NCBI GenBank assembly: GCA_020846135.1
Contig: JADLEK010000001.1
Coordinates: 1-64,000, forward strand
DNA length: 64,000 bases
Source of the DNA: Gammaproteobacteria bacterium
GTDB lineage: Bacteria > Pseudomonadota > Gammaproteobacteria > Competibacterales > Competibacteraceae
Direction: 5' to 3'
The translations under genes were made by a program, and so were the position numbers. The first letter of the stretch is position 1. Every line of letters begins with the position of its first letter. Positions 43,844 to 59,725 of the stretch are shown here, piece by piece. Below the pieces are notes generated by a model, which saw only the letters and a program-made list of their open reading frames with translations, was not told the DNA's origin and made no database searches.

Positions 43844-44674
43844 ATGAAGCCACTAATGATCGATGCTGCGGCCATTCCGGCGCTGAACCCGATTCCCGAC
43901 GTGCAAAACAGCGCCGATACCCGGCAGTTGGCGATCAACAAGGTCGGCATCAAGGATATTCGCCATCCGGTCAAGGTGCGCGACCGGAGCGGCGGCGAAC
44001 AGCACACCATCGCCACCTTCAACATGTATGTGAATTTGCCGCATAACTTCAAAGGCACCCACATGTCCCGGTTCGTGGAGATTCTGAACGTGCCGGGGCG
44101 CGAAATTTCGGTGGATTCGTTCCAGAACATGCTGGTGGAGATGACCGACCGGCTGGAGGCGGAGGCCGGCCACATTGAGATGACCTTCACCTACTTCGTG
44201 AACAAGGCCGCGCCGGTGTCCGGGGTGCAAAGCCTGATGGATTATGAAGTGACGTTTACCGGCGAGATTCGCGCCGGCCAACCGGCCATGAATCTCAAGG
44301 TCGTTGTACCCGTGACCAGCCTGTGTCCCTGCTCGAAGAAGATTTCCAGCTATGGCGCCCACAACCAGCGCTCCCATGTCACGATCAGCGTCCGCACCCG
44401 GGGGTTTATCGGGATCGAAGACCTGATTGATCTGGCGGAGAAGGAGGCATCCTGCGAGTTGTATGGCCTGCTCAAGCGCCCGGATGAGAAGTATGTGACG
44501 GAACGGGCTTATGAGAATCCGAAATTCGTGGAAGATATGGTGCGCGACATCGCCGCCAGGCTGAATCAGGATGATCGGGTCGCGGCTTACGCGGTCGAGT
44601 CGGAAAACTTCGAGTCGATTCACAATCATTCCGCCTACGCCATGATCGAGCGTGACAAGGACGCGGAGGGATGA
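43844..44674 (+). CDS. folE2: GTP cyclohydrolase FolE2 (type IB)
   Basis: Converts GTP to 7,8-dihydroneopterin triphosphate using a metal-flexible site, often induced under zinc limitation. 276 residues. The motif [22 protein letters not shown] (about 164-185) includes the catalytic Cys and His of FolE2, and GTHMSRFVE (about 70) is conserved. A 5' AGAGGA ribosome site precedes the start. It overlaps the PTPS-family gene that follows by 4 bases, so pterin precursor and the next enzyme are made together. No zur-type operator was recognised. Confidence 0.94.
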
Positions 44675-45198
44675 TCGAGCGCAATGGCCAACAGCGCTGG
44701 CTGATTCACGTTCGCAAGGACCATTTCAAATTTTCGGCGGCGCACATGACCGTGTTCCCCGATGGCGGCAAGGAACGCCTGCACGGGCATAACTATCAGG
44801 TTGAGCTGACCGTAGAATTGATCGAGCCGGCCCTAGCGCAGATGCTCAGTTATGAGGTGTTCAAGCCGGCGTTAAAGACCGTCTGTGATCAGTGGGATGA
44901 AAAGGTGCTGATCGCCGCCGGTAATCCGTGGCTGGAATCGTTGCCTGCCGAGGACGGGGAATGCGCCTTCCGCCTGTGCGGCAAGCGCTATGTGTTGCCG
45001 GCGGATGAGGTGGCGATGCTGGAGATGGATAACATCACCGCCGAAAATCTGGCCCGGTTGCTATTTGAGCGGTTCTGGGCGGAATTGACCGCCGACCGCA
45101 CGGTGTCGTGGCGGGAACAGGTAATTGCGATCAGTGTGCGGATTGACGAATCACGCGGTCAGGGCGCGACCTACGCGATTCGGTTTAAGCAGCCTTGA
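44671..45198 (+). CDS. 6-pyruvoyl-tetrahydropterin/6-carboxytetrahydropterin synthase family protein (PTPS-1)
   Basis: 175 residues of the T-fold PTPS/QueD family. Zinc ligands are present: His in FSAAHMT (about 28) and both His in LHGHNY (about 44-46). The Cys that QueD and PTPS use just before HGH is missing; the local sequence is [10 protein letters not shown], with Lys and Glu instead, slightly reminiscent of Glu-type PTPS-III enzymes. A roughly 40-residue insertion (about 85-125) makes it longer than QueD (120). It probably acts on dihydroneopterin triphosphate supplied by FolE2; which product it makes is open. Its end overlaps the end of the convergent methyltransferase by 14 bases. Confidence 0.8.
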
Positions 45199-45994: not shown

Positions 45995-47044
45995 TCAGGC
46001 CGGCGCAGTGTCAAGCGCTGCCGCAAACCGGGCGCAGATCTGCGGCCAGTCAGGCAGGGTGCGTCGGGCAACCCGCGCCCCGGCAGCGAGTTCTCGCCGC
46101 AGTTCCGGTTTCTCCAGCATCCGCCTTAACACTTCAGTGAGCGCCGCCACATCGCCCGGCGGAACCAGCAGCCCGGCGTCCGCCGGCACGGTGTCAGGGA
46201 TCGCCCCGGCCGTTGTACTAATGATCGGCAGGCCCCGCGCCAGCGCCTCAGCCAGCACCATGCCGTAGCCTTCATGGAAGGAGGGCAGGACGAAAACATC
46301 CGCCTGGTGGTAACTCATCGCCAGCGCCGCCGTGTCGAGTTCGCCGAGCAATGCGATGCGTTCGGTCAGTTCCAGCTCATAAATCAGCGCCTGCAAGCCA
46401 GCGGCGGTCACTGGATCCAGCGTCGGGCTACCCGCGCACCGCAACCGCCATTGATGTTGCTTGAGTCCAGCCAGCGCCCGAAACAGCACCGCATGGCCCT
46501 TGCGTAGGGTCAGGCTGGCGGCGCACAGCAACGCGACTTCGCCGCCGCTTGAACCTACAGCCAAAGGCGCGGGATCAGTACCCGGCAGAACCACCGCACA
46601 CCGCTCCGGAATCACCGCATAGTCAGCCAGCGCCCGCGCGGTGCTGGGACTGGTGACGATGATTTGCCGGACCTGCCGCAATGCTTCGCGTTCACTGGCG
46701 TAAAGCTGTTGCTGGCGGGACTCGTCCAGCCCGGTTTCCAGCGCCAGCGGGTGATGCACCAGCCCGATCAGTCGCAACCGCTCCCGATGCGCGGCGACGA
46801 CGCTCGGCATGGCTCCCAGCGCCAGCCCGTCGATCACGACCAGCGCCTGCTCCGGCAAGGCCGCTAGCACCGCGTCAGCGTCCTGTAAATCAGCAGAGTC
46901 CGGCAACGGAAACGCCGCGCTTAACCGGCGCAACTCGATCTGCCAGCCGAGTTCTCTCAATCCAGCCACGATCCGGCGGTCATAGAGATACCCGCCAGTG
47001 CGGGTCTCTGGATCGCCGGGAATCAGGAAATACGCCGACTTCAC
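45995..47044 (-). CDS. glycosyltransferase family 4 protein
   Basis: 349-residue GT-B enzyme. N-terminal half starts with a Gly-rich acceptor loop (DPETRTGGYLYDRRIV); the C-terminal nucleotide-sugar domain has SLTLRKGHAVLFRAL (about 185), LLGELDTAALAMSYHQADVFVLPSFHEGYGMVLAEALARG with the E-x7-E motif (about 275), and a final Pro-rich GLLVPPGDV. Retaining transferase by family. It overlaps PTPS-2 by 4 bases, a partnership suggesting that the acceptor is a pterin-like molecule, as in cyanobacterial pterin glycosylation. A polysaccharide acceptor is not excluded. Confidence 0.85.
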   Translation of the reverse strand: MKSAYFLIPGDPETRTGGYLYDRRIVAGLRELGWQIELRRLSAAFPLPDSADLQDADAVLAALPEQALVVIDGLALGAMPSVVAAHRERLRLIGLVHHPLALETGLDESRQQQLYASEREALRQVRQIIVTSPSTARALADYAVIPERCAVVLPGTDPAPLAVGSSGGEVALLCAASLTLRKGHAVLFRALAGLKQHQWRLRCAGSPTLDPVTAAGLQALIYELELTERIALLGELDTAALAMSYHQADVFVLPSFHEGYGMVLAEALARGLPIISTTAGAIPDTVPADAGLLVPPGDVAALTEVLRRMLEKPELRRELAAGARVARRTLPDWPQICARFAAALDTAPA

Positions 47045-47442
47045 GGCAACGATCCCTCGTAGGCGGCCCAGGCCAGGTGTGATTCATGCAGAGTGACGCG
47101 CATCGAACTGAGACCGGCGGCGCCCGTTCCCAACTGCCCATCTTCGATCCACATCGCGATCCGATCAAAAATCGCCCGCGCCAGCGCCTCGGTGGTGGTG
47201 TTATGTCCGGCGAACTGCGGCAACTCGTCGAGATTGCGGTAGTTCAGTTCCTCCAGTGCTTCGCGCAAAGCGGTGCTGAGTCTGCCGATATCCACTACCA
47301 CGCCATCCGGGTCGAGTTCAGGTCGGCGCAGTTCCAGATCAACAACGTAGGTCGCGCCGTGCAGGCGCTGAGCGGGACCAAAGGTCTCCCCGCGAAAGCT
47401 GTGGGCGATCATGAAGTGATCGCGGACGCAAACGGCGTACAT
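47041..47442 (-). CDS. PTPS/QueD-family protein with altered zinc site (PTPS-2)
   Basis: From ATG 47442 (CCAGGAA ribosome site upstream) the protein has 133 residues with the T-fold signature: FMIAHSFRGE with the first zinc His (about 14), then RLHGATYVV, where the second position of the normal HGH is His but the third is Ala. DGVVVDIGRL, NYRNLDELP and NTTTEALARAIFDRI follow the QueD pattern. There is no Cys near the HGA element. The loss of one zinc ligand and of the catalytic Cys argues that it does not do classical QueD chemistry. First gene of an operon with GT4 and methyltransferase. Confidence 0.8.
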   Translation of the reverse strand: MYAVCVRDHFMIAHSFRGETFGPAQRLHGATYVVDLELRRPELDPDGVVVDIGRLSTALREALEELNYRNLDELPQFAGHNTTTEALARAIFDRIAMWIEDGQLGTGAAGLSSMRVTLHESHLAWAAYEGSLP

Positions 47443-47461
47443 GGCAGGATTCCTGGTAGGT

Positions 47462-47523
47462 AAAGTGAGTCTTTCGCTGACTGCCGGATGGAAAAGTGAG
47501 TCTTTCGCTGACTGTCGGATGGA
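47462..47523. repeat. 31-bp tandem duplication in the PTPS-2 operon leader
   Basis: Two copies of a 31-base unit (47462-47492 and 47493-47523) starting AAAGTGAGTCTTTCGCTGAC differ at one position (C/T). They lie 20 bases upstream of the PTPS-2 start codon, so the duplication extends its leader. The unit may contain a regulatory site. Confidence 0.9.
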
Positions 47524-47727
47524 TTTGCATTGATCATCGAGTTGCATCGATCGTCAGGTTGCGCCCCACCGAGCGAATCGAGGCGATCAGTCCATCTGTA
47601 TCCATCTATAATTACTCATCAGTCATAAGTTCTCCCCCTGAAAAGCCTTGATGGCGTTCCTCGAAAGCAGCATGAATTCCCCTGAGCAGTCCGTGCCTGA
47701 ACAACCCGATCGCTCGAGGAGAATCCA

Positions 47728-47910
47728 TGCTGACCTACCTGTATCATGCTTTAGCGAGTTTTCGCAATGCCTTTTCTCGTGAACGCAGTGGGTTGCTGTT
47801 CTGTTCTGTGCCGTGGTGTTGAGTTTTTTTAGCGGCTCTGGAGATGATCGGGGTGACCTCGATGTGCCGGTTCTGGCAGAGAAATGAAGCGGTCTATCAC
47901 CGAATGCCGG
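47728..47910 (+). pseudogene. transposase N-terminal fragment (IS remnant)
   Basis: ATG at 47728 after GAGGAGAA opens MLTYLYHALASFRNAFSRER and runs to LLFCSVPWC before a stop. A neighbouring frame continues with AALEMIGVTSMCRFW and NEAVYHR. I recognise this as the N-terminus of a DDE transposase whose copies are frameshifted and cut off here. The family assignment (IS4-like) is tentative. The rest of the element is absent. Confidence 0.5.
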
Positions 47911-48051
47911 TTTTCGTAGGCTTCGATTAACGTCACCAGGACTTCCCTTTCGTCAGCTTCCTGCGTGCCTGCTTGTGCTGGGAAGACCTGTTCAAGCTGA
48001 GAATAAGGTCAACCGCAAGTCGTTGTCGTCGCGAATCGGTTTAATCGCCAT
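47885..48051 (-). pseudogene. HigA-like antitoxin fragment
   Basis: On the minus strand from ATG 48051: MAIKPIRDDNDLRLTL, then a frame break, then LEQVFPAQAGTQEADEREV and LVTLIEAYENRH. This follows the N-terminal part of HigA-type antitoxins ahead of their helix-turn-helix, which is missing because the transposase remnant begins there. Non-functional. Confidence 0.6.
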
Positions 48052-48082
48052 TGACGGTCTCCACGTTGATTGGGACGCGTCA

Positions 48083-48458
48083 CTGTTCAAATCAAACGGG
48101 TTCAGAACCCGAACGCCGGTCGCTATAAAGTCGTTCTGATTACGGGTGACTACCGCCAGGTCATAAATCAAAGCCGTGGCGGCAATCTGCTTATCCAGCG
48201 CATGCTCCGGGTGTGGCGCTCGGAGCCGACCCCAGAGTTGGGCTGCTTCTTCTTCAAAAGCAAGAATACAGTAAAAGCAAGAATACAGTCGTTGTACTCG
48301 GTGAGTATCCGCTGTAACCAGGCTTCCAGTTGCCCGGCCTGCACTGCATCGCCACGACGGCGCAGTTGTTCGATGCCGTGGCGCAGCTCCCCGACGGTCA
48401 CGACTGAGAGATAGAGCGGTACGTCACCGGCGTCCACCCACGCGAAGAATCGGCGCAT
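48083..48458 (-). pseudogene. VapC-like PIN domain toxin, broken by a 17-bp tandem duplication
   Basis: Minus-strand frame from about 48458: DVPLYLSVVTVGELRHGIEQL, then AWLQRILTEYNDCILAF, after which the frame goes wrong. The cause is visible: AAAAGCAAGAATACAGT occurs twice in tandem (48256-48272, 48273-48289). Removing one 17-base copy restores ILAFEEEAAQLWGRL and then DKQIAATALIYDLAVVTRNQNDF, ATGVRVLNPF, the PIN C-terminus with conserved Asp. The N-terminus (first 20-30 residues, with the first Asp) is also missing. Confidence 0.8.
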
Positions 48459-48493
48459 ACCGGGATCGGCTCGGTCCTTACTTGCTCACGGAC

Positions 48494-48822
48494 CGGTGCA
48501 GCAGGCGTTGCAACAACTCCACGCCTTGCCTTCAGCGCCGATGACGAGACCCGGCGGCTGGCTTTTGTCCGGGAACGCGCCCTGCGCAATGAAATCTCCG
48601 CCCTGCAAGGCGCGCACGATGAGGGTCGGCAGGGGGACCCTGCAACAGGGCCTGCAACAGGGATTTCATACCGTGCTGGAGCGCCAGTTGAGTAAACGCT
48701 TTGGCCCGCTGTCTGCCGAAACCCGTCAGCGGCTGACCCAGGCCACGCCCGAACAACTGGAAACCGGGGCTGAACGCCTGCTCGATGCACCCACTCTCAG
48801 CACGGTCTTTGAGTCGCACTGA
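48494..48822 (+). pseudogene. Rpn family nuclease/putative transposase, C-terminal remnant
   Basis: One frame gives FSADDETRRLAFVRERALRNE and ISALQGAHDEGRQG. A shift near 48635 moves to GTLQQGLQQGFHTVLERQL, then KRFGPLSAETRQRL and QATPEQLETGAERLL, the DUF4351-type C-terminus found in Rpn (recombination-promoting nuclease) proteins. The N-terminal PD-(D/E)xK part is missing. Confidence 0.7.
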
Positions 48823-48913
48823 TGGGAATTGACTTTATGAGAATCCAATGATAAAGCAGCCTGGATCGCGCAAAATCCAGGTTCTTCGGCCAAAGTTGGC
48901 CAAAAACAGCTTG

Positions 48914-49417
48914 CCGCCGATTCAGCCGCATGGCTCCGGCTATAAGCTGCAGTTCTCACACCCAGCGATGGTCGCGGATCTGCTGAATGGCTGGACGCGC
49001 CGGAGCAACAGGGCTTACGGCGGGCGTTTACAACTTGGCTACGAGAGGTATTGCTGCCGGCGCGATTGCCGGGGACTGATTGGCGGCGGTGTTGGAATTG
49101 AGCGAGGTGCGGAATATATTAGCGGAACGCGTGATGGAGTGGACCCAGGAGTGGAAACAGCAAGGCGTGGCGGAAGGCATCAAGGAAGGTATCAAAAAAG
49201 GCATTAAAAAGGTCGCCAGGGAGGCGAATTGTTGCTGTTACAGAGATTATTAGCTTTCAAATTTAGGGCGCTGGACGAGGCAAATCTGGCGCGGTTGGCG
49301 GCGGCGGACAGCGAAACATTGCTGGTGTGGGGCGAGCGGGTGTTAACGGCGGTGAATCTGGCCGCAGTGTTTGATGCCCCGGTTCCGCTGGAAGATGCGG
49401 CGATGCGTGACTGTTAG
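48914..49417 (+). pseudogene. second Rpn family remnant, internally deleted and frameshifted
   Basis: GYKLQFSHPAMVADLLNGW near the start matches the Rpn N-terminus, but it runs straight into LDAPEQQGLRRAFTTWLREV, meaning the nuclease core is deleted. Later frames give AERVMEWTQEWKQQGVAEGI, a repeated KEGIKKGIKK element, and ELLLLQRLLAFKFRALDEAN, then LAAADSETLLVWGERVL, the C-terminal domain. At least two frameshifts. Confidence 0.65.
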
Positions 49418-49462
49418 CACCTTACCTACTTGCTGCAACTGCGCTGAATTGACCAAAGGAGC

Positions 49463-49489
49463 AGGGCGGATAAGCGTAACGTATCCGAC
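49463..49489. repeat. half copy of the GGGCGGATAAGCG intergenic repeat
   Basis: AGGGCGGATAAGCGTAACG followed by TATCCGAC matches the left half of the palindromic element at 59759-59838 with two substitutions. It marks the end of the graveyard region; 49490-49614 otherwise holds the leader of the large glycosyltransferase. Confidence 0.6.
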
Positions 49490-49614
49490 AGAGAGGCCGC
49501 TTTAGTGCAGATCGCTCCGATTTTTAATGGAATTTATGTAGTTACCCTTGGCCAGTCGATTCGACTGACCGACGAAGCAACAGCCAACAGCCGAATCTAA
49601 TTCGGAGCCAAGAA

Positions 49615-52600
49615 ATGAAATCCAAAAGCTTTTTTACAACTCTCAGACACCCGTATTACATTTATACCTTTGATTATAGGCAATCATCGGCTGGGATCCG
49701 CGTTCTGCACTACCTTTGTCATGCATTAAACCTCATTGGAGAGGAAGCGTATGTTAATTGCGAAGTTACTAACGCTAAACTGCGAACACCAAAATTAACG
49801 GATAGAATCCGGGCAAAACACTGTGATCTTGGTTTACAACCTATTGCTGTATACCCTGAAGTAGTGTTTGGTAATCCAACCAATGCGCCTGTAGTAGCCC
49901 GTTATATTCTCAATAAACCGGGCCATCTAGGTGGAGATGATTCTTATGATCCGAGCGAATTTATATTCATTTACGCCAGTCTCTATTTATCAAATAATAT
50001 GGATGCGAAATTTCTTTTTATTCCACCAATCGATCCAAAAATATTCAATAATTTAGATAATGAATTTGATAAAAATCGACATGGCAGTTGTTTTTATGCA
50101 AACAAATTTTTGAGTAAAGGTGGAAAACTCACTGATTTAGTAAAAGGAGCGACTGATCTCACTCTACGAATACCACGCTCGCCTGAAGATCTAGCGGCTA
50201 TCCTGCGGCGCTCTGAAGTACTCTATTGCTATGAACCGTCAGCCATTTCTTTAGAGGCGATGCTTTGCGGCTGTCCAGTAATGTTTGTACTGACTGAATA
50301 TATGAATGAAGTACCAGCATCAATAGAACTCATTGGCGATAACGGCTGTACCACAAATCTTGACCCGTCCGGGCTTGACCATGCCCGTGCGACACTAGGT
50401 ATTGTTACTGACCGCTACTGTGAACTTGAAGAACAGGCATGGGATCAACTCGCACAGTTTGTAGAGATTACGCAAGCAGCAGCCGAAGCTCGCCATCAGG
50501 AAGCTAAGCTATTCTCTGCTTCCCCTTCAATCAGTGATCGAGATCCGCACACACTAGCTGATTTGTCCTCCACACTTACTGTAACCGCGCCACAGCCACT
50601 GCTGTCGATAATCATTTGCAGTATTGACGACGAACGCTTTGCCAAGGTAGCCCGCAACTATCGTGATTTGCTTGCCGCGATTCCGCACGAAATTATCCGT
50701 ATTAACGATGCCAAGTCTTTATGTGAAGGCTATAACCGGGGTATCGCCCGTAGCAGAGGCGAATACCTGATTTTCTCCCATGATGATATTGAAATATGGA
50801 CGCCTGATTTTGGCCAGCGCCTACTAAGGCATTTAGGTTGTTGTGACGTGGTAGGTGTGGCTGGCACCGATCTACTGGTGGATGCCAATACTACCAAAAA
50901 AGTCAATTGGATTTGGGGTGGTGCAGGACCAGCCCATGTATTCGGGCGAATTATCCAACTGGCTTTAGATGAAAAAGACTATAAATATACAGTCAATTTG
51001 TATGGGGTTCCATCGCTGCTGATAGAAGGGATGCAAGCACTGGATGGGGTATTTATCGCAATGCGAAGGTCAGTAGCCGTAACTCTGGGCTTTGATCAGG
51101 AAACTTTTGACGGTTTTCATCTTTATGATATTGATTTTACCTATCGCGCCTTTCATCAAGGATTCCGTATTGGAGTATTCAATGACATTGCAATCATTCA
51201 CTACTCGTCCGGTCGCTATGATGAACACGAATGGAACTTTAATCAGCGATTTTTAAATAAATTCGCGGGAATCATCCCTAAAAGGCAGACCCTCTATTGG
51301 AAAACCGCGAAGATTGGATTCCAGCAGATCGATGAAATCCTCGCGTTCTACGCAGACAGTATCCAAGGATTACCACAAACGGCTAACGTGATCAGTACAG
51401 CGCTGGATGAAAAACGCGATAAAGCTGAATCTTCAGATGCAGCGGCCTATCAACGCTGGTGTGAACAACGACAATTAGGAGAAGGCTGGGCTGAGCTTAT
51501 TGGCATCAGGATGATGACCCGGTGGCGAACACAGCCGACCTTTCATCTGGTGATCTGGTGCGAGCCAGGCCAACAAACCGCGTTAGCTGACACGCTCGAA
51601 TCCTTGGGGCAGCAACTCTATGGTCAATGGGGCTTGAGCATCTTGGCGCCCTTCGCTCCGCCGGACGAAACGGCCAGTGAATTACCCAACATTGAATGGA
51701 TCCGGGTCGACGCAGATACCGACACAGCCCTACGAAACACGCTGGAAGCATCGGCGCTCGATTGGTTCGCCTTGCTCGAACCGGGCGACCGACTGCCTAC
51801 CCATGCCCTGTTAACGGCGGCTGACTACATCAATCGTTATCCAGCGTGGCGCTTCATTTATCTGGATGAAGATCAACTGGATGGTCGCGGTGAACGCCGC
51901 GCTCCACTGTTCCGTCCGAGTTTCGATCTGGATCTACTGCTGGCGACCCACTACCTCGGCGATTGTTGCCTGATGCACCGGGAAAGTGTGCTGACAAGCG
52001 GCGATCTGCCCTATGTGCCCGGTCTGCTCACCTTCCAGGCAGCGCTCCGCGTCCGTGAATACTATGGCCGATCCGCGATCGGCCATATCGCGGATGTTCT
52101 CTATCATCGGGCAGTACATCCTCCAGTTACTGATGCCGACCTGGTAGCGCAAGCGCGTCGGCAACTGGTGATCGACTACCTGAACCAGCGTGGCATTGCC
52201 GCAACGGTTGAGGACGCACTACTGCCCGGCACCTGGCGGGTAGTCTATCGCCATTCACGTCAACCAAAAGTTTCGATCATCATTCTTGCTCGCGATGCGA
52301 TGGATTGGCTTGACCGATGCTTGCGCCGATTACTCGATAAAACCACTTACCCGGATTATGAAATCCTCGTCGTCGACTGTGGCAGCGAGGTCGATGACAC
52401 GATTGATCTCTACAGCGAACTCGAGACCCGACATCCCGATCGATTTCAGGTGATCGTCGCCCAAGGGCCGTTTTCAATATCCGCTTATCGTAACCAGGGT
52501 GCGCGCCAGGCCCGGGGCGAAGTGTTTATCTTCCTGACGGGATCGGCGCTCACGATCCAGGCAGAGTGGGTCGAGCGGTTACTCAATCATGCCCTGCGCA

Positions 52601-54117
52601 ACGATGTAGGCATCGTTGGCGCCCGTCTGACGACCCCTGATAAAACCTTACCGTTTATTCAGGGCACCGCACAGATTCTGGGGATGCGCGGCATTGCCGG
52701 TCCGCTCTTCACCGGTCTGCCACTGCGGGCACCGGGGCCACTCGACCGCGCGCAGGTTGATCAAACCGTGTCGGCAGTCAGTGCGGAATGCATGGCGATC
52801 CGGCGTGAAGTATTCGAAGCGGTTAACGGCTTTGATGAAGCGTTCACCATTGCCCATGCTGACACTGATCTTTGCTTGCGCACCGCTATGCAGGGTTATC
52901 GCGCCGTGTGGACGCCCTTCGCCAACCTGGCCTGGCTGGGTGACTATCCACTGGCTACCGGATACGATTCGGCTGAACTGGCCCAGCTCGCCCGTGCTGA
53001 TGCGGAACGAATGTTCGAACGTTGGTTGCCACAACTCGCTGCAGATCCTGCCTATAACCCGAATTTGAGTCTGGCCGAACCCCGCCGGATCGAAGCCGAA
53101 CTAACACCCCGCTGGGATACCCGCTTCCACGATCGACCGCGCTTGTTGGGCTTCCCGATGGATATGTCCGGCTGTGCGCTGTATCGGGTTTACGCCCCCC
53201 TCTGGCTACTCGAACACCAGGCCAAGGCGGAATGTATGTTGATTAAAGCCGGTGGCCGTTTGCCGGAGTTGGCGGAATTAGCCCGTCTGGCCCCTGATAC
53301 GGTGTTCTATCAATCCACACTCAAGGACGCCTGGTTGGAAGCCATGCGGCAGTATCGCCAGTTCCATCGCTCCTTCAAAGTGTTTGATCTCGATGATCTC
53401 AAACATGATGTCCCCGACGCCAACAGTCTCAAGGAACGCTTGATGCGGGATATAAAATATCGTCACCGCCAAGCCTTGCAGCATTGTGATCGGTTGATTG
53501 TCTCGACTGAACCATTAGTCGAAGCCTGCCGGTCATGGATTCCTGACATCCGGGTTGTGCCTAACCGCTTGGAGCGATCCCGCTGGGAGCATCTCCATAA
53601 CCAGCGCCGGGCCGGATCGAAACCACGGGTGGGGTGGGCGGGTGCCCAACAGCACCATGGCGATCTGGCCTTCATTACCGAAGCCGTTCAGCAAACCCAC
53701 GATGAAGTAGACTGGATCTTTTTCGGGATGTGCCTAGATGATCTGCGGCCCTATGTGAAGGAAGTACACGACTGGGTGTCGCTCGATGATTACCCGGCCA
53801 AACTCGCTTCACTGAATCTCGACGTAGCCGTAGCGCCGCTGGAAAACCATCCTTTCAACGAAGCCAAGAGCAATTTGCGCATTCTTGAACATGGGGTTCT
53901 GGGCCGTCCGATGGTCTGCACCGATATCTATCCCTATCAAAATGCGCCGGTCGTCCGAGTGCCGAACGAAACTCGCGCCTGGGTAGAAGCAATTCGCGCC
54001 TACGTCCATGACCTTGATGCCGCTGAACGGGATGGCAAGACCTTGCAGACCTGGGTGCTGGACCATTACCTGCTGGATGATCACACCGATGACTGGCTCA
54101 GCGCACTCAGACCCTGA
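49615..54117 (+). CDS. giant multi-domain glycosyltransferase next to flagellin
   Basis: 1500 residues, GGAG ribosome site at about 49602. Parts by eye: a GT-B-like segment (about 1-310) with YEPSAISLEAMLCGCPVMFV; a GT2 domain (about 325-560) starting LLSIIICSIDD with FSHDDIE as the metal motif; a second GT2-like domain (about 635-870) with FIYLDEDQLDG; a third GT2 domain (about 883-1150) opening PKVSIIILARDAMDWLDRCL with HADTDLCLRTAMQG; and a C-terminal GT-B domain (about 1170-1500) with FPMDMSGCALYRVYAPL and FNEAKSNLRILEHGVLG. The first 600 codons are clearly richer in A/T than the rest, so the gene is probably a fusion or recombinant. Position before fliC suggests flagellin glycosylation. 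Confidence 0.85.
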   Translation: MKSKSFFTTLRHPYYIYTFDYRQSSAGIRVLHYLCHALNLIGEEAYVNCEVTNAKLRTPKLTDRIRAKHCDLGLQPIAVYPEVVFGNPTNAPVVARYILNKPGHLGGDDSYDPSEFIFIYASLYLSNNMDAKFLFIPPIDPKIFNNLDNEFDKNRHGSCFYANKFLSKGGKLTDLVKGATDLTLRIPRSPEDLAAILRRSEVLYCYEPSAISLEAMLCGCPVMFVLTEYMNEVPASIELIGDNGCTTNLDPSGLDHARATLGIVTDRYCELEEQAWDQLAQFVEITQAAAEARHQEAKLFSASPSISDRDPHTLADLSSTLTVTAPQPLLSIIICSIDDERFAKVARNYRDLLAAIPHEIIRINDAKSLCEGYNRGIARSRGEYLIFSHDDIEIWTPDFGQRLLRHLGCCDVVGVAGTDLLVDANTTKKVNWIWGGAGPAHVFGRIIQLALDEKDYKYTVNLYGVPSLLIEGMQALDGVFIAMRRSVAVTLGFDQETFDGFHLYDIDFTYRAFHQGFRIGVFNDIAIIHYSSGRYDEHEWNFNQRFLNKFAGIIPKRQTLYWKTAKIGFQQIDEILAFYADSIQGLPQTANVISTALDEKRDKAESSDAAAYQRWCEQRQLGEGWAELIGIRMMTRWRTQPTFHLVIWCEPGQQTALADTLESLGQQLYGQWGLSILAPFAPPDETASELPNIEWIRVDADTDTALRNTLEASALDWFALLEPGDRLPTHALLTAADYINRYPAWRFIYLDEDQLDGRGERRAPLFRPSFDLDLLLATHYLGDCCLMHRESVLTSGDLPYVPGLLTFQAALRVREYYGRSAIGHIADVLYHRAVHPPVTDADLVAQARRQLVIDYLNQRGIAATVEDALLPGTWRVVYRHSRQPKVSIIILARDAMDWLDRCLRRLLDKTTYPDYEILVVDCGSEVDDTIDLYSELETRHPDRFQVIVAQGPFSISAYRNQGARQARGEVFIFLTGSALTIQAEWVERLLNHALRNDVGIVGARLTTPDKTLPFIQGTAQILGMRGIAGPLFTGLPLRAPGPLDRAQVDQTVSAVSAECMAIRREVFEAVNGFDEAFTIAHADTDLCLRTAMQGYRAVWTPFANLAWLGDYPLATGYDSAELAQLARADAERMFERWLPQLAADPAYNPNLSLAEPRRIEAELTPRWDTRFHDRPRLLGFPMDMSGCALYRVYAPLWLLEHQAKAECMLIKAGGRLPELAELARLAPDTVFYQSTLKDAWLEAMRQYRQFHRSFKVFDLDDLKHDVPDANSLKERLMRDIKYRHRQALQHCDRLIVSTEPLVEACRSWIPDIRVVPNRLERSRWEHLHNQRRAGSKPRVGWAGAQQHHGDLAFITEAVQQTHDEVDWIFFGMCLDDLRPYVKEVHDWVSLDDYPAKLASLNLDVAVAPLENHPFNEAKSNLRILEHGVLGRPMVCTDIYPYQNAPVVRVPNETRAWVEAIRAYVHDLDAAERDGKTLQTWVLDHYLLDDHTDDWLSALRP

Positions 54118-54174: not shown

Positions 54175-54201
54175 TAAAGCTCATCGTCTGCACGCCGATA
54201 T
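54175..54201 (+). promoter_or_regulatory. sigma-28 (FliA) promoter of fliC
   Basis: TAAA at 54175-54178, a 15-base spacer, then GCCGATAT at 54194-54201: seven of eight matches to GCCGATAA with ideal spacing. It lies 72 bases before the flagellin ATG, the usual distance. Confidence 0.9.
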
Positions 54202-54273: not shown

Positions 54274-55131
54274 ATGGCCCTCGTCATCAATTCCAATATC
54301 CCCGCCTACACCGCACAAAATCAGTTGGCAAAGACCAACACCGCGCAACAGAACGCGATGCAACGCCTGACCTCTGGCCTGAAAGTCAATAGCGCCAAAG
54401 ACGATTCAGCCGGTCTTGCGATTGCCAATACCATGACGGCGCAACTTCGTGGTATGAGTGTGGCGATTCGAAATGCAAATGATGGGATTTCTATGGCCCA
54501 GACGGCTGAAGGATCCCTCAACGAAATTAACACGCTCATGCAGCGTATGCGTGAGCTTGGAGTACAGGCGGCTAATGACACCAATACGTCTGGTGACCGG
54601 CTGAAAATTGCCGAAGAAGTTGGATCGCTTGGCAGTGAAATTGATCGGATCGCCAAGTCCACTGACTTTAACGGTACAAAGGTTTTGAATACATCCGCTA
54701 ATTACAATATTCAGGTCGATCACTCGGTAACTGCAAATGGTACTATTAGCGTTAGTGTTGCCAGTGCTGGCACCTTGAGCGGCTTGGGCGGCGCAAGCTT
54801 GGCGAGTGCGAGTTCAGCGGGTTCTATTTCCTCCTCGCTCGCTTCAAATTCGGCGGCAATGACGTTCGTTAGCTCTATCGATACCGCACTGGGTAATATC
54901 AATGAGATGCGCGCCAAACTCGGCGCGGTGCAGAATCGCTTGTCTAGCACCGTTAGTAACATCCAGAATGTTTCTGAAAACATGACGGCTGCCAAATCCC
55001 GCATCATGGATGCCGACTTCGCGGCGGAAGTGTCCAATCTGAGTCGGTCGCAGATCCTGTCGCAGGCTGGCACCGCGATGTTGTCGCAGGCCAATCAGGC
55101 GCAGCAAAACGTGCTCTCGCTGCTGCGGTAG
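54274..55131 (+). CDS. fliC: flagellin
   Basis: Flagellar filament subunit, 285 residues from ATG 54274 with CAGGAG upstream. The D0/D1 N-terminal helices (MALVINSNIPAYTAQNQLAKT, RLTSGLKVNSAKDDSAGLAIA) and the C-terminal D1/D0 helices (RAKLGAVQNRLSSTVSNI, ILSQAGTAMLSQANQAQQNVL) are canonical. The variable central region is very short (about 150-205) and rich in Ser, Ala, Gly and Thr, offering many possible O-glycosylation sites. Transcribed from the sigma-28 promoter at 54175. Confidence 0.97.
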   Translation: MALVINSNIPAYTAQNQLAKTNTAQQNAMQRLTSGLKVNSAKDDSAGLAIANTMTAQLRGMSVAIRNANDGISMAQTAEGSLNEINTLMQRMRELGVQAANDTNTSGDRLKIAEEVGSLGSEIDRIAKSTDFNGTKVLNTSANYNIQVDHSVTANGTISVSVASAGTLSGLGGASLASASSAGSISSSLASNSAAMTFVSSIDTALGNINEMRAKLGAVQNRLSSTVSNIQNVSENMTAAKSRIMDADFAAEVSNLSRSQILSQAGTAMLSQANQAQQNVLSLLR

Positions 55132-55153
55132 TCTGAATACTCGGATGGCGACC

Positions 55154-55199
55154 GGCGGGGCTTGCGTGATACCCATCGTAGGCCCCGCCCCCTGTTTTG
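55154..55199 (+). terminator. GC-rich stem-loop after fliC
   Basis: GGCGGGGC (55154-55161) and GCCCCGCC (55182-55189) are perfect complements around a 20-base loop; TTTT follows at 55194. It probably attenuates transcription between fliC and flaG, which would allow abundant flagellin mRNA. Confidence 0.65.
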
Positions 55200-55211
55200 A
55201 AGGAGAATGTA

Positions 55212-55736
55212 ATGAGTGACATTACTCTGAGTCCTCTCGCGGGAGCTGTACCCGCACCAACCCCCACCCGCACCGCACCGCCGGAACCGGCCACAGTGCA
55301 GCAAGCGGTCGGTCAGCCGATCAACAGTCCACAAACTGCGGTGAATCAATCACCTACCTCGGGCAGTGCTGAACGGCGCGAGAACACCGATGCTGATGGC
55401 CAGCGGCAAAACTCACCGGCCAAAATTCCACCCAGCCCTCAGCAACTGGCAGACACCCTGGATCGGGTCAACCAGCGCCTGCTGGATTACAACACGAAGA
55501 TTCAATTCGACATCGACACCAAGCATGGTGGTAAAACGGTGATTCGCATCATTGACCAGGAAACCAAGGAGGTGATAAAGCAGATTCCCCCGGAGAAAGC
55601 GCTCGAGTTTGCTGCCTTCTTTGATGAACTGGAAGCGCAAAACAGTCCGGTTTCATCTGAATCAGCTCAAAAAAAAGCTGCTGCTGATGGCTCGCGATTA
55701 AAACTGGAAGGTCTGCTGTTCAGCGATAAAGCCTGA
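55212..55736 (+). CDS. flaG: flagellar protein FlaG
   Basis: 174 residues from ATG 55212 after AAGGAGAA. The first 80 residues are Pro/Thr/Ser-rich and disordered; the C-terminal half has the FlaG core: LADTLDRVNQRLLDYNTKIQF, VIRIIDQETKEVIKQIPPEKAL. It influences filament length. Usual position between fliC and fliD. Confidence 0.9.
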   Translation: MSDITLSPLAGAVPAPTPTRTAPPEPATVQQAVGQPINSPQTAVNQSPTSGSAERRENTDADGQRQNSPAKIPPSPQQLADTLDRVNQRLLDYNTKIQFDIDTKHGGKTVIRIIDQETKEVIKQIPPEKALEFAAFFDELEAQNSPVSSESAQKKAAADGSRLKLEGLLFSDKA

Positions 55737-55785
55737 TTTATCGGAAGTCTGTTTCAGAAACACAACATTTTAAGGAGTGAACACC

Positions 55786-57177
55786 ATGGCTATTTCGTTA
55801 TCGACTGGACTCGGTTCTGGAATTGATGTTCAGAGCATGGTTTCACAGTTGGTATCTGCTGAGCGTACCCCGGCAACTCAACGGCTGGATGCACTTAAAA
55901 CCAAACTGACCACCCAGATTTCCAGCCTTGGTTCCATAAAAAGCGCTCTATCCGGATTCCAGAGTACCCTTGCTGATCTGAAGAAAACCAGCACTTTTCA
56001 AAACCTGAAAGCCACTGTTGCTGACGAAAAACAATTTACCGCAACAACGGATTCTGACTCGACTGCAGGTAGTTATAACATCCTAGTTAATAACTTGGCT
56101 CAAGCACAACGGCTGGTGACTGCGGCTGACCCAACGCTTACCAGCACCACTAGCCAGATTGGTACAGGAACGCTGTCTATCCAGGTAGGTTCTGCTGAAG
56201 CCCAGTCTGTTACCGTTACTGATGGTAGTTTAACCGGGGTGCGTGATGCCATTAACAACGCTAAAATTGGCGTCACGGCTAATCTTGTCAAAGATGGTAG
56301 CAGTTATCGTTTAGTAGTAGGTGCCAATGACACTGGGGCTGCTAACGGATTGACCATAACCGTAAGCGGCGATGGTGATGATAATAATAGCGATAATAGC
56401 GGTTTATCACGACTGACCTATAATTCTGCGGGTACGAAAAATATGACAGAGACGGCTGCCGCCAAGGACTCACAAATTGTTGTGGATGGCCTGACGCTGA
56501 ATAGCGCCAGTAATACCATTAAGGATGTCATCCCCGGCGTGACCCTCAGTCTCAAAGCGAAGGGTGATACCGCGACCAGCCTCGCAGTGGCACAGGACGC
56601 CTCTGGCGTGACTACTAAACTGGAAGCGTTCGTCAAGTCTTATAATGATTTGATGAGCAATGTAAAATCGGCAACGGCTTATAATCCAACAACCAAGACT
56701 GGAGGTACCCTAATTGGAGATTCAGTTGTCCGTTCGACCGTCAGCCAGGTTCGCGATGTAGTCAGCAGTAGCGTTGCGGAAGCTACCGGCGACTACAAGA
56801 TGCTGGCTGATATCGGCATTAGCATGCAACGTGACGGTACCTTGGCGCTCGACGCCACCAAATTAAAAACCGCCTTGGCAGCGAATACCGATGGTGTTGC
56901 CAGCGTGTTCACCGCCGGCACGACCGGCATTGCACAGCGATTGGATAGCGCATTGACTAAAATCCTGGGTAGCGATGGGCCATTAGCCAGCCGTACCGAC
57001 AGCTTGAACCGGCAAGTCAAGGATATAGGTAATCAGCGCAACACGCTGGACCTACGGATGGCCGCACTGGAAAAGATTTATTTCACCAAGTTCTCGGCGA
57101 TGGATCAGCTAGTGAGTGGACTTAACAATACGAGCAGTTATTTAGCTTCACAGTTGTCCGGGCTATCGAGCAGCTAA
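55786..57177 (+). CDS. fliD: flagellar hook-associated protein 2 (filament cap)
   Basis: Cap protein that helps flagellin fold at the tip. 463 residues from ATG 55786 (AAGGAG 9 bases upstream). N-terminal FliD_N signature STGLGSGIDVQSMVSQLVSAER and the C-terminal FliD_C coiled region (about 240-460) ending SSYLASQLSGLSS. Middle domains are Ser/Thr/Asp-rich and more AT-rich than average. Confidence 0.94.
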   Translation: MAISLSTGLGSGIDVQSMVSQLVSAERTPATQRLDALKTKLTTQISSLGSIKSALSGFQSTLADLKKTSTFQNLKATVADEKQFTATTDSDSTAGSYNILVNNLAQAQRLVTAADPTLTSTTSQIGTGTLSIQVGSAEAQSVTVTDGSLTGVRDAINNAKIGVTANLVKDGSSYRLVVGANDTGAANGLTITVSGDGDDNNSDNSGLSRLTYNSAGTKNMTETAAAKDSQIVVDGLTLNSASNTIKDVIPGVTLSLKAKGDTATSLAVAQDASGVTTKLEAFVKSYNDLMSNVKSATAYNPTTKTGGTLIGDSVVRSTVSQVRDVVSSSVAEATGDYKMLADIGISMQRDGTLALDATKLKTALAANTDGVASVFTAGTTGIAQRLDSALTKILGSDGPLASRTDSLNRQVKDIGNQRNTLDLRMAALEKIYFTKFSAMDQLVSGLNNTSSYLASQLSGLSSS

Positions 57178-57221
57178 TCCACTGAAGACTGCATTTCGTC
57201 ATGTTACCCTGGAGATTGCAC

Positions 57222-57650
57222 ATGGCTACCCCAAATAGTGTATTGCAGCGATACCAACAAGTTGGCGCCCAGAGCGGCGTCGCTTACGCCAGCCCACATC
57301 GGCTGATTCAGATGCTGATGGAAGGCGCGTTTGAGCGGATCGCTGTCGCCAAGGGCTGCATCCAGCGCCATGACATCCCCGGTAAAGGCGAACAGATCGG
57401 CAAAGCGATTGACATTATCGGTGGCCTGCGTGATGGCCTCAATATGGACGCTGGCGGTGAATTAGCGGCCAATCTCGACGGGCTGTACGCCTTTGTGCAA
57501 CAGCGACTGGTGGAAGCCAACCTGCATTCCGACGCCACTATCCTTGATGAAGTCGCCGACCTGCTGCGCCCGATCAAGGAAGGCTGGGACGCGATTGGCA
57601 ACAACCCGGAAGCCGCCGCGCCTCCACCACCCGCAGACGCGCCGGCGTGA
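57222..57650 (+). CDS. fliS: flagellar secretion chaperone FliS
   Basis: Chaperone that keeps flagellin from polymerising in the cytoplasm. 142 residues; RYQQVGAQSGVAYASPHRLIQMLMEGAFERI and AIDIIGGLRDGLN are typical, with a Pro/Ala tail. Overlaps fliT by 4 bases. Confidence 0.94.
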   Translation: MATPNSVLQRYQQVGAQSGVAYASPHRLIQMLMEGAFERIAVAKGCIQRHDIPGKGEQIGKAIDIIGGLRDGLNMDAGGELAANLDGLYAFVQQRLVEANLHSDATILDEVADLLRPIKEGWDAIGNNPEAAAPPPPADAPA

Positions 57651-59242: not shown

Positions 59243-59725
59243 GTGGGAGTAGTACGGTGGCTGGGGATTCACCGGTTTCGCCTGCGCGATGACCAGGGGC
59301 AGAGCCTGATCGATCACGGCGGGATCTGGCTGCTGGAATTAAACAAGGTAACCGTCCAAGTGGTCGAAACCGATCAGCAGCGGTGGCTGAAGTTTTTTGT
59401 AGAAGGTGACCGGCTGGATGATGAACACTTGCCCGCATGGATGAATACCGAGGAGATGCAGCAAGCCATGAATACCTTAAAAGCCTTTTCCGAGAAAACC
59501 CGTGCCTACCACCGGTATCAGGCGCGGCAGAACTACCTGCGCCAGCAGCAGAGTATTCAGAACCACATGAATCTGTTGCTTGCCCAAGCCGAGCAGGCGC
59601 AGGCCGAGAAAGAGCAGGCGCAGGCCGAGAAAGAGCAGGCGCAGGCCGAGAAAGAGCAGGCGCAGGCTGAGAAAGAAGCAGCCTTGGCGGAAATCGAACG
59701 TCTCAAAGCCCTGCTCCGCAACTAG
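59243..59725 (+). pseudogene. Rpn/PDDEXK-family C-terminal remnant with EQAQAEK heptad repeats
   Basis: 160 residues. The opening IHRFRLRDDQGQSLIDHGGI and WLLELNK, followed by WLKFFVEGDRLDDEHLPAWM, correspond to the late part of Rpn-type PD-(D/E)xK proteins; the nuclease core is missing at the N-terminus. The C-terminal part is a coiled coil containing four identical EQAQAEK heptads. It could still be translated (open frame to 59725), but the truncated start suggests a relic. Confidence 0.6.
59591..59674 (+). repeat. 21-bp coding tandem repeat (4 copies)
   Basis: Unit GAGCAGGCGCAGGCCGAGAAA occurs four times (starting 59591, 59612, 59633, 59654), the last with one C-to-T change. It encodes the heptad EQAQAEK, so copy-number changes preserve the frame and the coiled-coil register. 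Confidence 0.95.

Follow-up and report, generated by a model that had tools for sequence, protein, structure and literature searches.

In Pseudomonas aeruginosa, the native glycan of b-type flagellin is a single deoxyhexose extended by phosphate and dimethylthreonine, and flagellin from a pa1091 mutant is unglycosylated; the pa1091 product (FgtA), termed a GT2 enzyme, unites a glycosyltransferase and a phosphotransferase (PMC11833859). In P. syringae, two genes upstream of fliC, fgt1 and fgt2, encode flagellin glycosyltransferases; Fgt1 adds rhamnose to Ser, and flagellin of the fgt1 mutant is likewise unglycosylated (PMC3927599, PMC3402453). Fused methyltransferase domains have been described in enterobacterial flagellin glycosyltransferases (PMC4875605), and searches of the openly accessible literature, subscription papers aside, turned up no description of swapped domains among FgtA-type enzymes. 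Here we describe a glycosyltransferase (GT) gene encoded upstream of fliC in a Gammaproteobacteria bacterium of the Competibacteraceae. It occupies positions 49615-54117 on the plus strand of the window, by which we mean the whole stretch of 64,000 nucleotides analysed (GCA_020846135.1, contig JADLEK010000001.1, positions 1-64,000, forward strand). Its 1500-residue product, hereafter the window GT, belongs by sequence to the FgtA-type flagellin glycosyltransferases. With a probability of about 0.7, we regard it as a modular, cytoplasmic FgtA-family enzyme for the O-glycosylation of flagellin, in which the C-terminal domain E primes, the N-terminal modules A and B extend, the middle domains C and D are mainly structural, and whose gene was exchanged together with its flagellin.

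A conserved core shared with FgtA

Relatives were gathered by scanning one genome per species and, in addition, relatives of the host; the scans yielded 41 relatives and dozens more. A core made of domains C, D and E (residues ~611-1500 of the window GT, about 890 residues) was found in 78 distinct genes, mostly from Beta- and Gammaproteobacteria, and is preceded by a linker with the pattern YxxWxxxxxLxExDAxxxAERMxxxW. The P. aeruginosa homologue is a 1694-residue protein on locus L171 (NZ_CP131792.1, 396298-414727), which the core profile scores at 970 bits. The window GT core matches it at 36% over 872 residues (E 6e-124), with 44% in domain E; the last 850 residues of the P. aeruginosa protein align with residues 638-1500 of the window GT. 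The order on L171 is flgK-flgL-methyltransferase-HAD phosphatase-NTP transferase-GT-fliC(B-type)-flaG-fliD-fliS, as described for pa1088-pa1091 (PMC11833859), with neighbours matching pa1088-pa1092, and by this order and its annotation the protein is taken to be FgtA (PA1091). The L171 record is labelled an 847-kb P. aeruginosa plasmid, yet it bears a complete flgK-fleR flagellar block with b-type flagellin and FgtA. No PF04464 (Glyphos_transf) match is present in the window GT; this excludes the PA1091 subtype only, because N-terminal modules differ from member to member across the wider family.

The window GT gene is a single unbroken ATG frame of 1500 codons with GGAG located 8 nt ahead of the start. 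Module A (codons 1-320, 49615-50574) had no match in a Pfam search; the AlphaFold model of residues 1-300 has predicted local distance difference test (pLDDT) values mostly above 90, its Foldseek matches are GT-B enzymes, and a conserved YEPSA...EA motif (E207, E214) is present. Relatives of this module are either stand-alone or fused to the core. Module B (codons 325-610, 50587-51444) matches the GT2 family PF13712 at residues 331-533 and has SHDD (D390, D391) and YDIDF; its fold assignment rests on Pfam, since the predicted structure of this part is poor. The linker (codons 611-640, 51445-51534) is followed by the GT-A-like domain C (residues 641-880, 51535-52254), the GT2 domain D (residues 881-1150, 52255-53064; PF00535 at residues 887-1069) and the GT-B domain E (residues 1165-1500, 53107-54114), all on the plus strand. 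Domain E is the most conserved part, with intact GWAG, FFGMC and FNEAKSNLRILEHG motifs, and its match to the group 1 family PF13692 is weak (16.8-18.5 bits, cut-off 27). The predicted structure of residues 636-1500 (pLDDT 92.5, predicted template-modelling score 0.90) resolves into GT-A, GT-A and GT-B folds for C, D and E; the best fold matches of C-D are K4CP and PmHS2, synthases with two GT-A domains, and the GT-B part (E) matches GT-B enzymes such as PglA. The initial annotation had proposed one intact frame with up to five GT-like domains, and on Pfam and the predicted models that is correct as a number of folds.

Several lines of context connect the core to flagellin. Downstream sequence of 900 nt or more was available for 75 distinct core genes, and in 43 of these fliC lies no further than 2.5 kb downstream. 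In the Pseudomonadaceae the core occurs in 74 of 158 genomes, with fliC beside it at 27 of 30 inspected loci; the assignment to this family was made through the C-terminal ends of two loci, shared with named Pseudomonas and Stutzerimonas records. Flagellin had already been put forward as the substrate, and the proximity of the core to fliC across classes, the homology to FgtA and the joint exchange of GT and flagellin types described below all agree with that view, so that glycosylation of flagellin by the window GT is strongly supported by context. An enzyme that builds cell-surface polysaccharide (O-antigen or capsule) and lies beside fliC for other reasons is improbable. Domains C and D do resemble polysaccharide GT2 enzymes and match chondroitin and heparosan synthases in both sequence and fold, and 32 of the 75 core genes have no fliC match in the 2.5 kb examined. 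Against such a role stand the FgtA homology and gene order, the repeated linkage to fliC and the co-exchange with FliC; moreover, the long frames in the right third of the window include no polysaccharide gene cluster around the gene.

Catalytic motifs and predicted activities

The five folds differ in their motif states. In domain C, the last position of the DXD motif is Asp in 0 of 76 family members and Gly in 75, including the window GT (G724); we read C as an ancestral pseudo-glycosyltransferase domain. In domain D the motif is intact in many members (LNNDT and similar) and lost in the window GT (LTGSA, S977), in the homologue from genome G027 of another genus, in most genes that bear module A and in FgtA (LGAGV); the putative catalytic base is retained in the window GT (HADTD, D1083/D1085). 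The motifs of domain E are preserved in all members. Since FgtA makes a one-sugar glycan and E is its sole clearly intact GT domain within the shared core, this argues for E as the transferase that acts on flagellin.

From the observed architecture, motif states, FgtA homology, synteny and discordant history we infer the activities, donor sugars and order of addition. The linker and core would serve the flagellin encoded next to them. Domain E most likely puts the first sugar on Ser/Thr of the short Ser/Thr-rich middle of FliC, and A and B most likely contribute one sugar each; C and D are probably scaffold or acceptor-binding parts. As C and D have no DXD Asp, active E, B and A are predicted, and the expected glycan has at most about three sugars. 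The suggestion that the protein may assemble a multi-sugar glycan by itself was thus overstated, because C and D do not have the usual metal-binding Asp. A fully active set of five domains, with the window GT assembling a pentasaccharide alone, is very unlikely: the chain has five GT folds and D keeps its putative base, but the DXD Asp is missing from C in 76 of 76 members and from D in the window GT, and FgtA, with the same losses, puts a single sugar on flagellin (PMC11833859).

It is important to note several points that weigh against the proposed division of labour. FgtA residues ~497-843 form an unclassified stretch that might conceal another transferase, which weakens the argument for E as the priming domain, and the P. 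aeruginosa protein was equated with FgtA from its gene order and annotation. Lack of DXD need not abolish activity in GT-A enzymes, and C or D may still work. Finally, the core genes with no fliC match in the stretch examined make other acceptors possible in part of the family; some of them have fliC a few kilobases further on, for example L037 and L081.

A link between module A and the loss of the DXD Asp in D was also considered. The raw counts are 9 of 10 versus 6 of 40 (Fisher p 1.7e-5) and, in a larger set, 8 of 11 versus 12 of 62 (p 9e-4); by independent tree pairs (about three concordant, none discordant, the others equal) the association is not significant and is a hint only.

Exchange of the gene and its modules

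The nearest relative of the window GT core is that of G027, at 74%, whereas copies from the same genus reach only about 38-41%. In the tree of domain E, the window GT and the G027 protein form a fully supported pair, and starred branches shut this pair out of a seven-member host-family clade in which two members come from the window's own genus. Domain E is 79% identical between the window and G027 and 45% between the window and the same-genus genome G003, with 85% between G003 and G013; the FliC ends follow the same pattern (71%, 59% and 79%). Other neighbours behave differently: FliS (81% with G003 versus 57% with G027) and the NtrC-type regulator (93% versus about 72%) are closer to the same genus, FliD is closer to G027 (59 versus 51%), and FlaG to G003 (53 versus 43%). 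Flagellin length also separates the two groups, at 285 residues in the window and 300 in G027 versus ~505 and ~749 in the same genus. By these sequence comparisons there are two GT types, each with its own flagellin type, which are exchanged together across genus borders.

The composition of the gene was compared with that of individual window genes, using the GC content at third codon positions (GC3). The window GT has a best, strong change-point at codon 623, within the linker, with GC3 of 0.37 before and 0.615 after it; module A is the most AT-rich part (0.32), followed by B (0.43), D (0.59), C (0.61) and E (0.63). Window genes outside the fliC-fliD stretch lie at 0.66-0.78 (dxs, folE2, the NtrC-type regulator, fliF and others at 0.69-0.78), the lowest being one 6-pyruvoyl-tetrahydropterin synthase (PTPS) gene and fliS at 0.66. 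Downstream of the GT, GC3 is 0.59 in fliC, 0.54 in flaG and 0.50 in fliD. The core and these three genes are all low, so the composition valley spans from the start of the GT through fliD. The sharp break in the initial annotation is real, but the remainder of the gene is not host-like as had been claimed (0.59-0.63 versus 0.66-0.78). In the family at large, GC3 of the N-terminal module is below that of the core in 56 of 74 distinct genes (median -0.043, sign test 1e-5); the drop in the window GT (0.23) is the fourth largest of the 74, and five of the six homologues of the host family that come from other genomes show a large drop as well.

These data bear on the proposal that an AT-rich foreign N-terminal half (A-B) was recently fused to a resident host GT gene. 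The change-point at a module boundary, the low GC3 of A and B and the lack of a second A-B-C-D-E gene among the family relatives found all favour it. However, the core is not resident, as it is discordant with the genus and below the host in GC3. The G027 contig (3004 bases, truncated on both sides) contains the tail of one core gene followed, after 4 nt, by a B frame extending into the core linker; this second gene is, by its sequence, most likely a B-core gene. A separate short B gene was considered and ruled out, because the frame continues into the linker at the contig end. Its B-core joint has no composition step (GC3 0.67 and 0.71), and since the joint is common to G027, the break in the window GT is no mark of fresh fusion. 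In addition, the closest relatives of module A are only about 45% identical, and hence no recent donor is visible. We consider the recent fusion unlikely. Full-length homologues in the same order had been named as evidence that would speak against it; no other was found, but the B-core joint is shared.

Fusion as such is real and recurrent: eleven other genes have module A attached straight to the core with B missing, and the distribution of A on the E tree takes 9 changes for 10 rows, hardly fewer than the 9.3 with shuffled labels. Module A has thus been gained or lost many times. What does not stand from the earlier proposal is a fresh joining to a resident gene. The N-terminal modules are highly variable in the family and comprise one to three GT2, GT4, A, PF13712, methyltransferase (TylF included), sulfotransferase with tetratricopeptide repeats (TPR), WbsX and RgpF modules, with a weak radical-SAM match as well. 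L052 and L054 share 94-100% identity in the ~550 C-terminal residues and 12-42% along the greater part of the N-terminal region; near-identical cores with unrelated N-termini are also seen in L007/L131, L063/L050 and L036/L038. The opposite pattern occurs in L062/L073 (A 95-98%, C-D 40-60%) and in L012/L014, where chiefly D is divergent. As judged from these alignments, the N-terminal modules are swapped by recombination, and modules would be traded in this way while the GT is traded together with its flagellin.

Some family members are unusual. A 2938-residue protein from Azospira oryzae (L037:1914-10727, plus strand) has a TylF methyltransferase, two GT-B, TPR and GT2 modules ahead of the core. 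The same-genus flagellin GT of L081 (10794-15761, minus strand) is a 1656-residue open frame starting CNLACPSC, with a weak Radical_SAM match (2.9e-5, under the cut-off) ahead of GT2 and core. Downstream of fliC in L132 (7346-14637, minus strand) lies a tandem pair of core GTs, of which one bears module A and has an E that has diverged strongly (23%).

We tentatively suggest, at somewhat less than even odds, that the FgtA family could make flagellin glycans combinatorially: the GT-B primer E, present in all members, and an ancestral dead C would together form a flagellin-docking platform, joined by a D that flickers between active and dead, swapped N-terminal modules (GT2, GT4, GT-B, methyltransferase, sulfotransferase, phosphotransferase and perhaps radical-SAM) and a gene that moves with its matching flagellin. 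If true, this would diversify the filament surface. Near-identical cores with swapped modules, such as L052/L054, offer a natural set in which to study the diversification of flagellar glycans.

The flagellar locus and described enzymes

The initial annotation placed the gene between a gene graveyard and fliC, and that location is right. Downstream, a sigma-28-like promoter box (54175-54201, plus strand, three mismatches) precedes fliC; an equally good match was found in 17 of 100 whole-window shuffles, yet the position before fliC fits, and L081 shows a comparable TAAAG...GCCGATAG box. The order fliC, flaG, fliD, fliS (54274-57650) follows. The fliC gene (54274-55131) encodes a 285-residue flagellin with 35% Ser/Thr in the central 66 residues (about 141-206); a flaG-like gene (55197-55736) and fliD (55777-57177), which marks the downstream end of the low-GC3 stretch, are also on the plus strand, and the adjoining fliS tracks genus history. 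No sigma-54-type box was found across the window and no Rfam family near the GT locus.

Upstream, 47547-49614 (about 2 kb) has no long frames and no convincing gene. Its sole same-genus DNA match is 64 bp (49355-49418), 81% identical to a site upstream of L081 fliC. A frame at 49232-49414 resembled a gene tail and had no Pfam match, and tblastn with the proteins of the fetched loci found no remnants of an older GT in 47.5-49.6 kb. Further out, two genes that by eye are PTPS-like (44671-45198, plus strand, and 47041-47547, minus strand) bracket a methyltransferase-like and a GT4-like gene, likewise judged by eye. A PD-(D/E)XK transposase-family fragment with QAEKEQAQAEKEQ repeats at its end lies within the flagellar cluster (59243-59725, plus strand). 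Elsewhere in the same genome (G000:C41:62169-63701) a large frame of 1621 aa has two Glyco_trans_1_4 domains.

Taken together, the results place a long, formerly unclassified GT in a family with a genetically proven role in flagellin modification, as a real, somewhat special member. PA1091 has been called a GT2 enzyme, but the GT2-like domains of the core look dead and the GT-B domain E is the better candidate for the protein-directed first step; which FgtA domain does what becomes a directly testable question. The window GT resembles FgtA in its homologous C-D-E core, its site just upstream of fliC-flaG-fliD-fliS, the degenerate C and D, the intact E and an additional N-terminal module. It differs in the nature of that module, a CDP-glycerol-type phosphotransferase (Glyphos_transf) in FgtA and GT-B plus GT2 here, and the window has no equivalents of pa1088-pa1090 beside fliC. 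K4CP (chondroitin polymerase) and PmHS2 (heparosan synthase) are polysaccharide polymerases in which both sites are active. They share two GT-A domains per chain and are the best fold matches to C-D, but have neither a GT-B domain nor a flagellar context, and the last DXD position in the window GT is Gly in C and Ser in D. Caulobacter FlmG, Aeromonas Fgi-1 and the Maf proteins are likewise flagellin glycosylation enzymes, set apart by published descriptions of their other architectures. Compared by description rather than by sequence, Fgt1 and Fgt2 of P. syringae are also flagellin glycosyltransferases encoded upstream of fliC, by two genes rather than the one found here.

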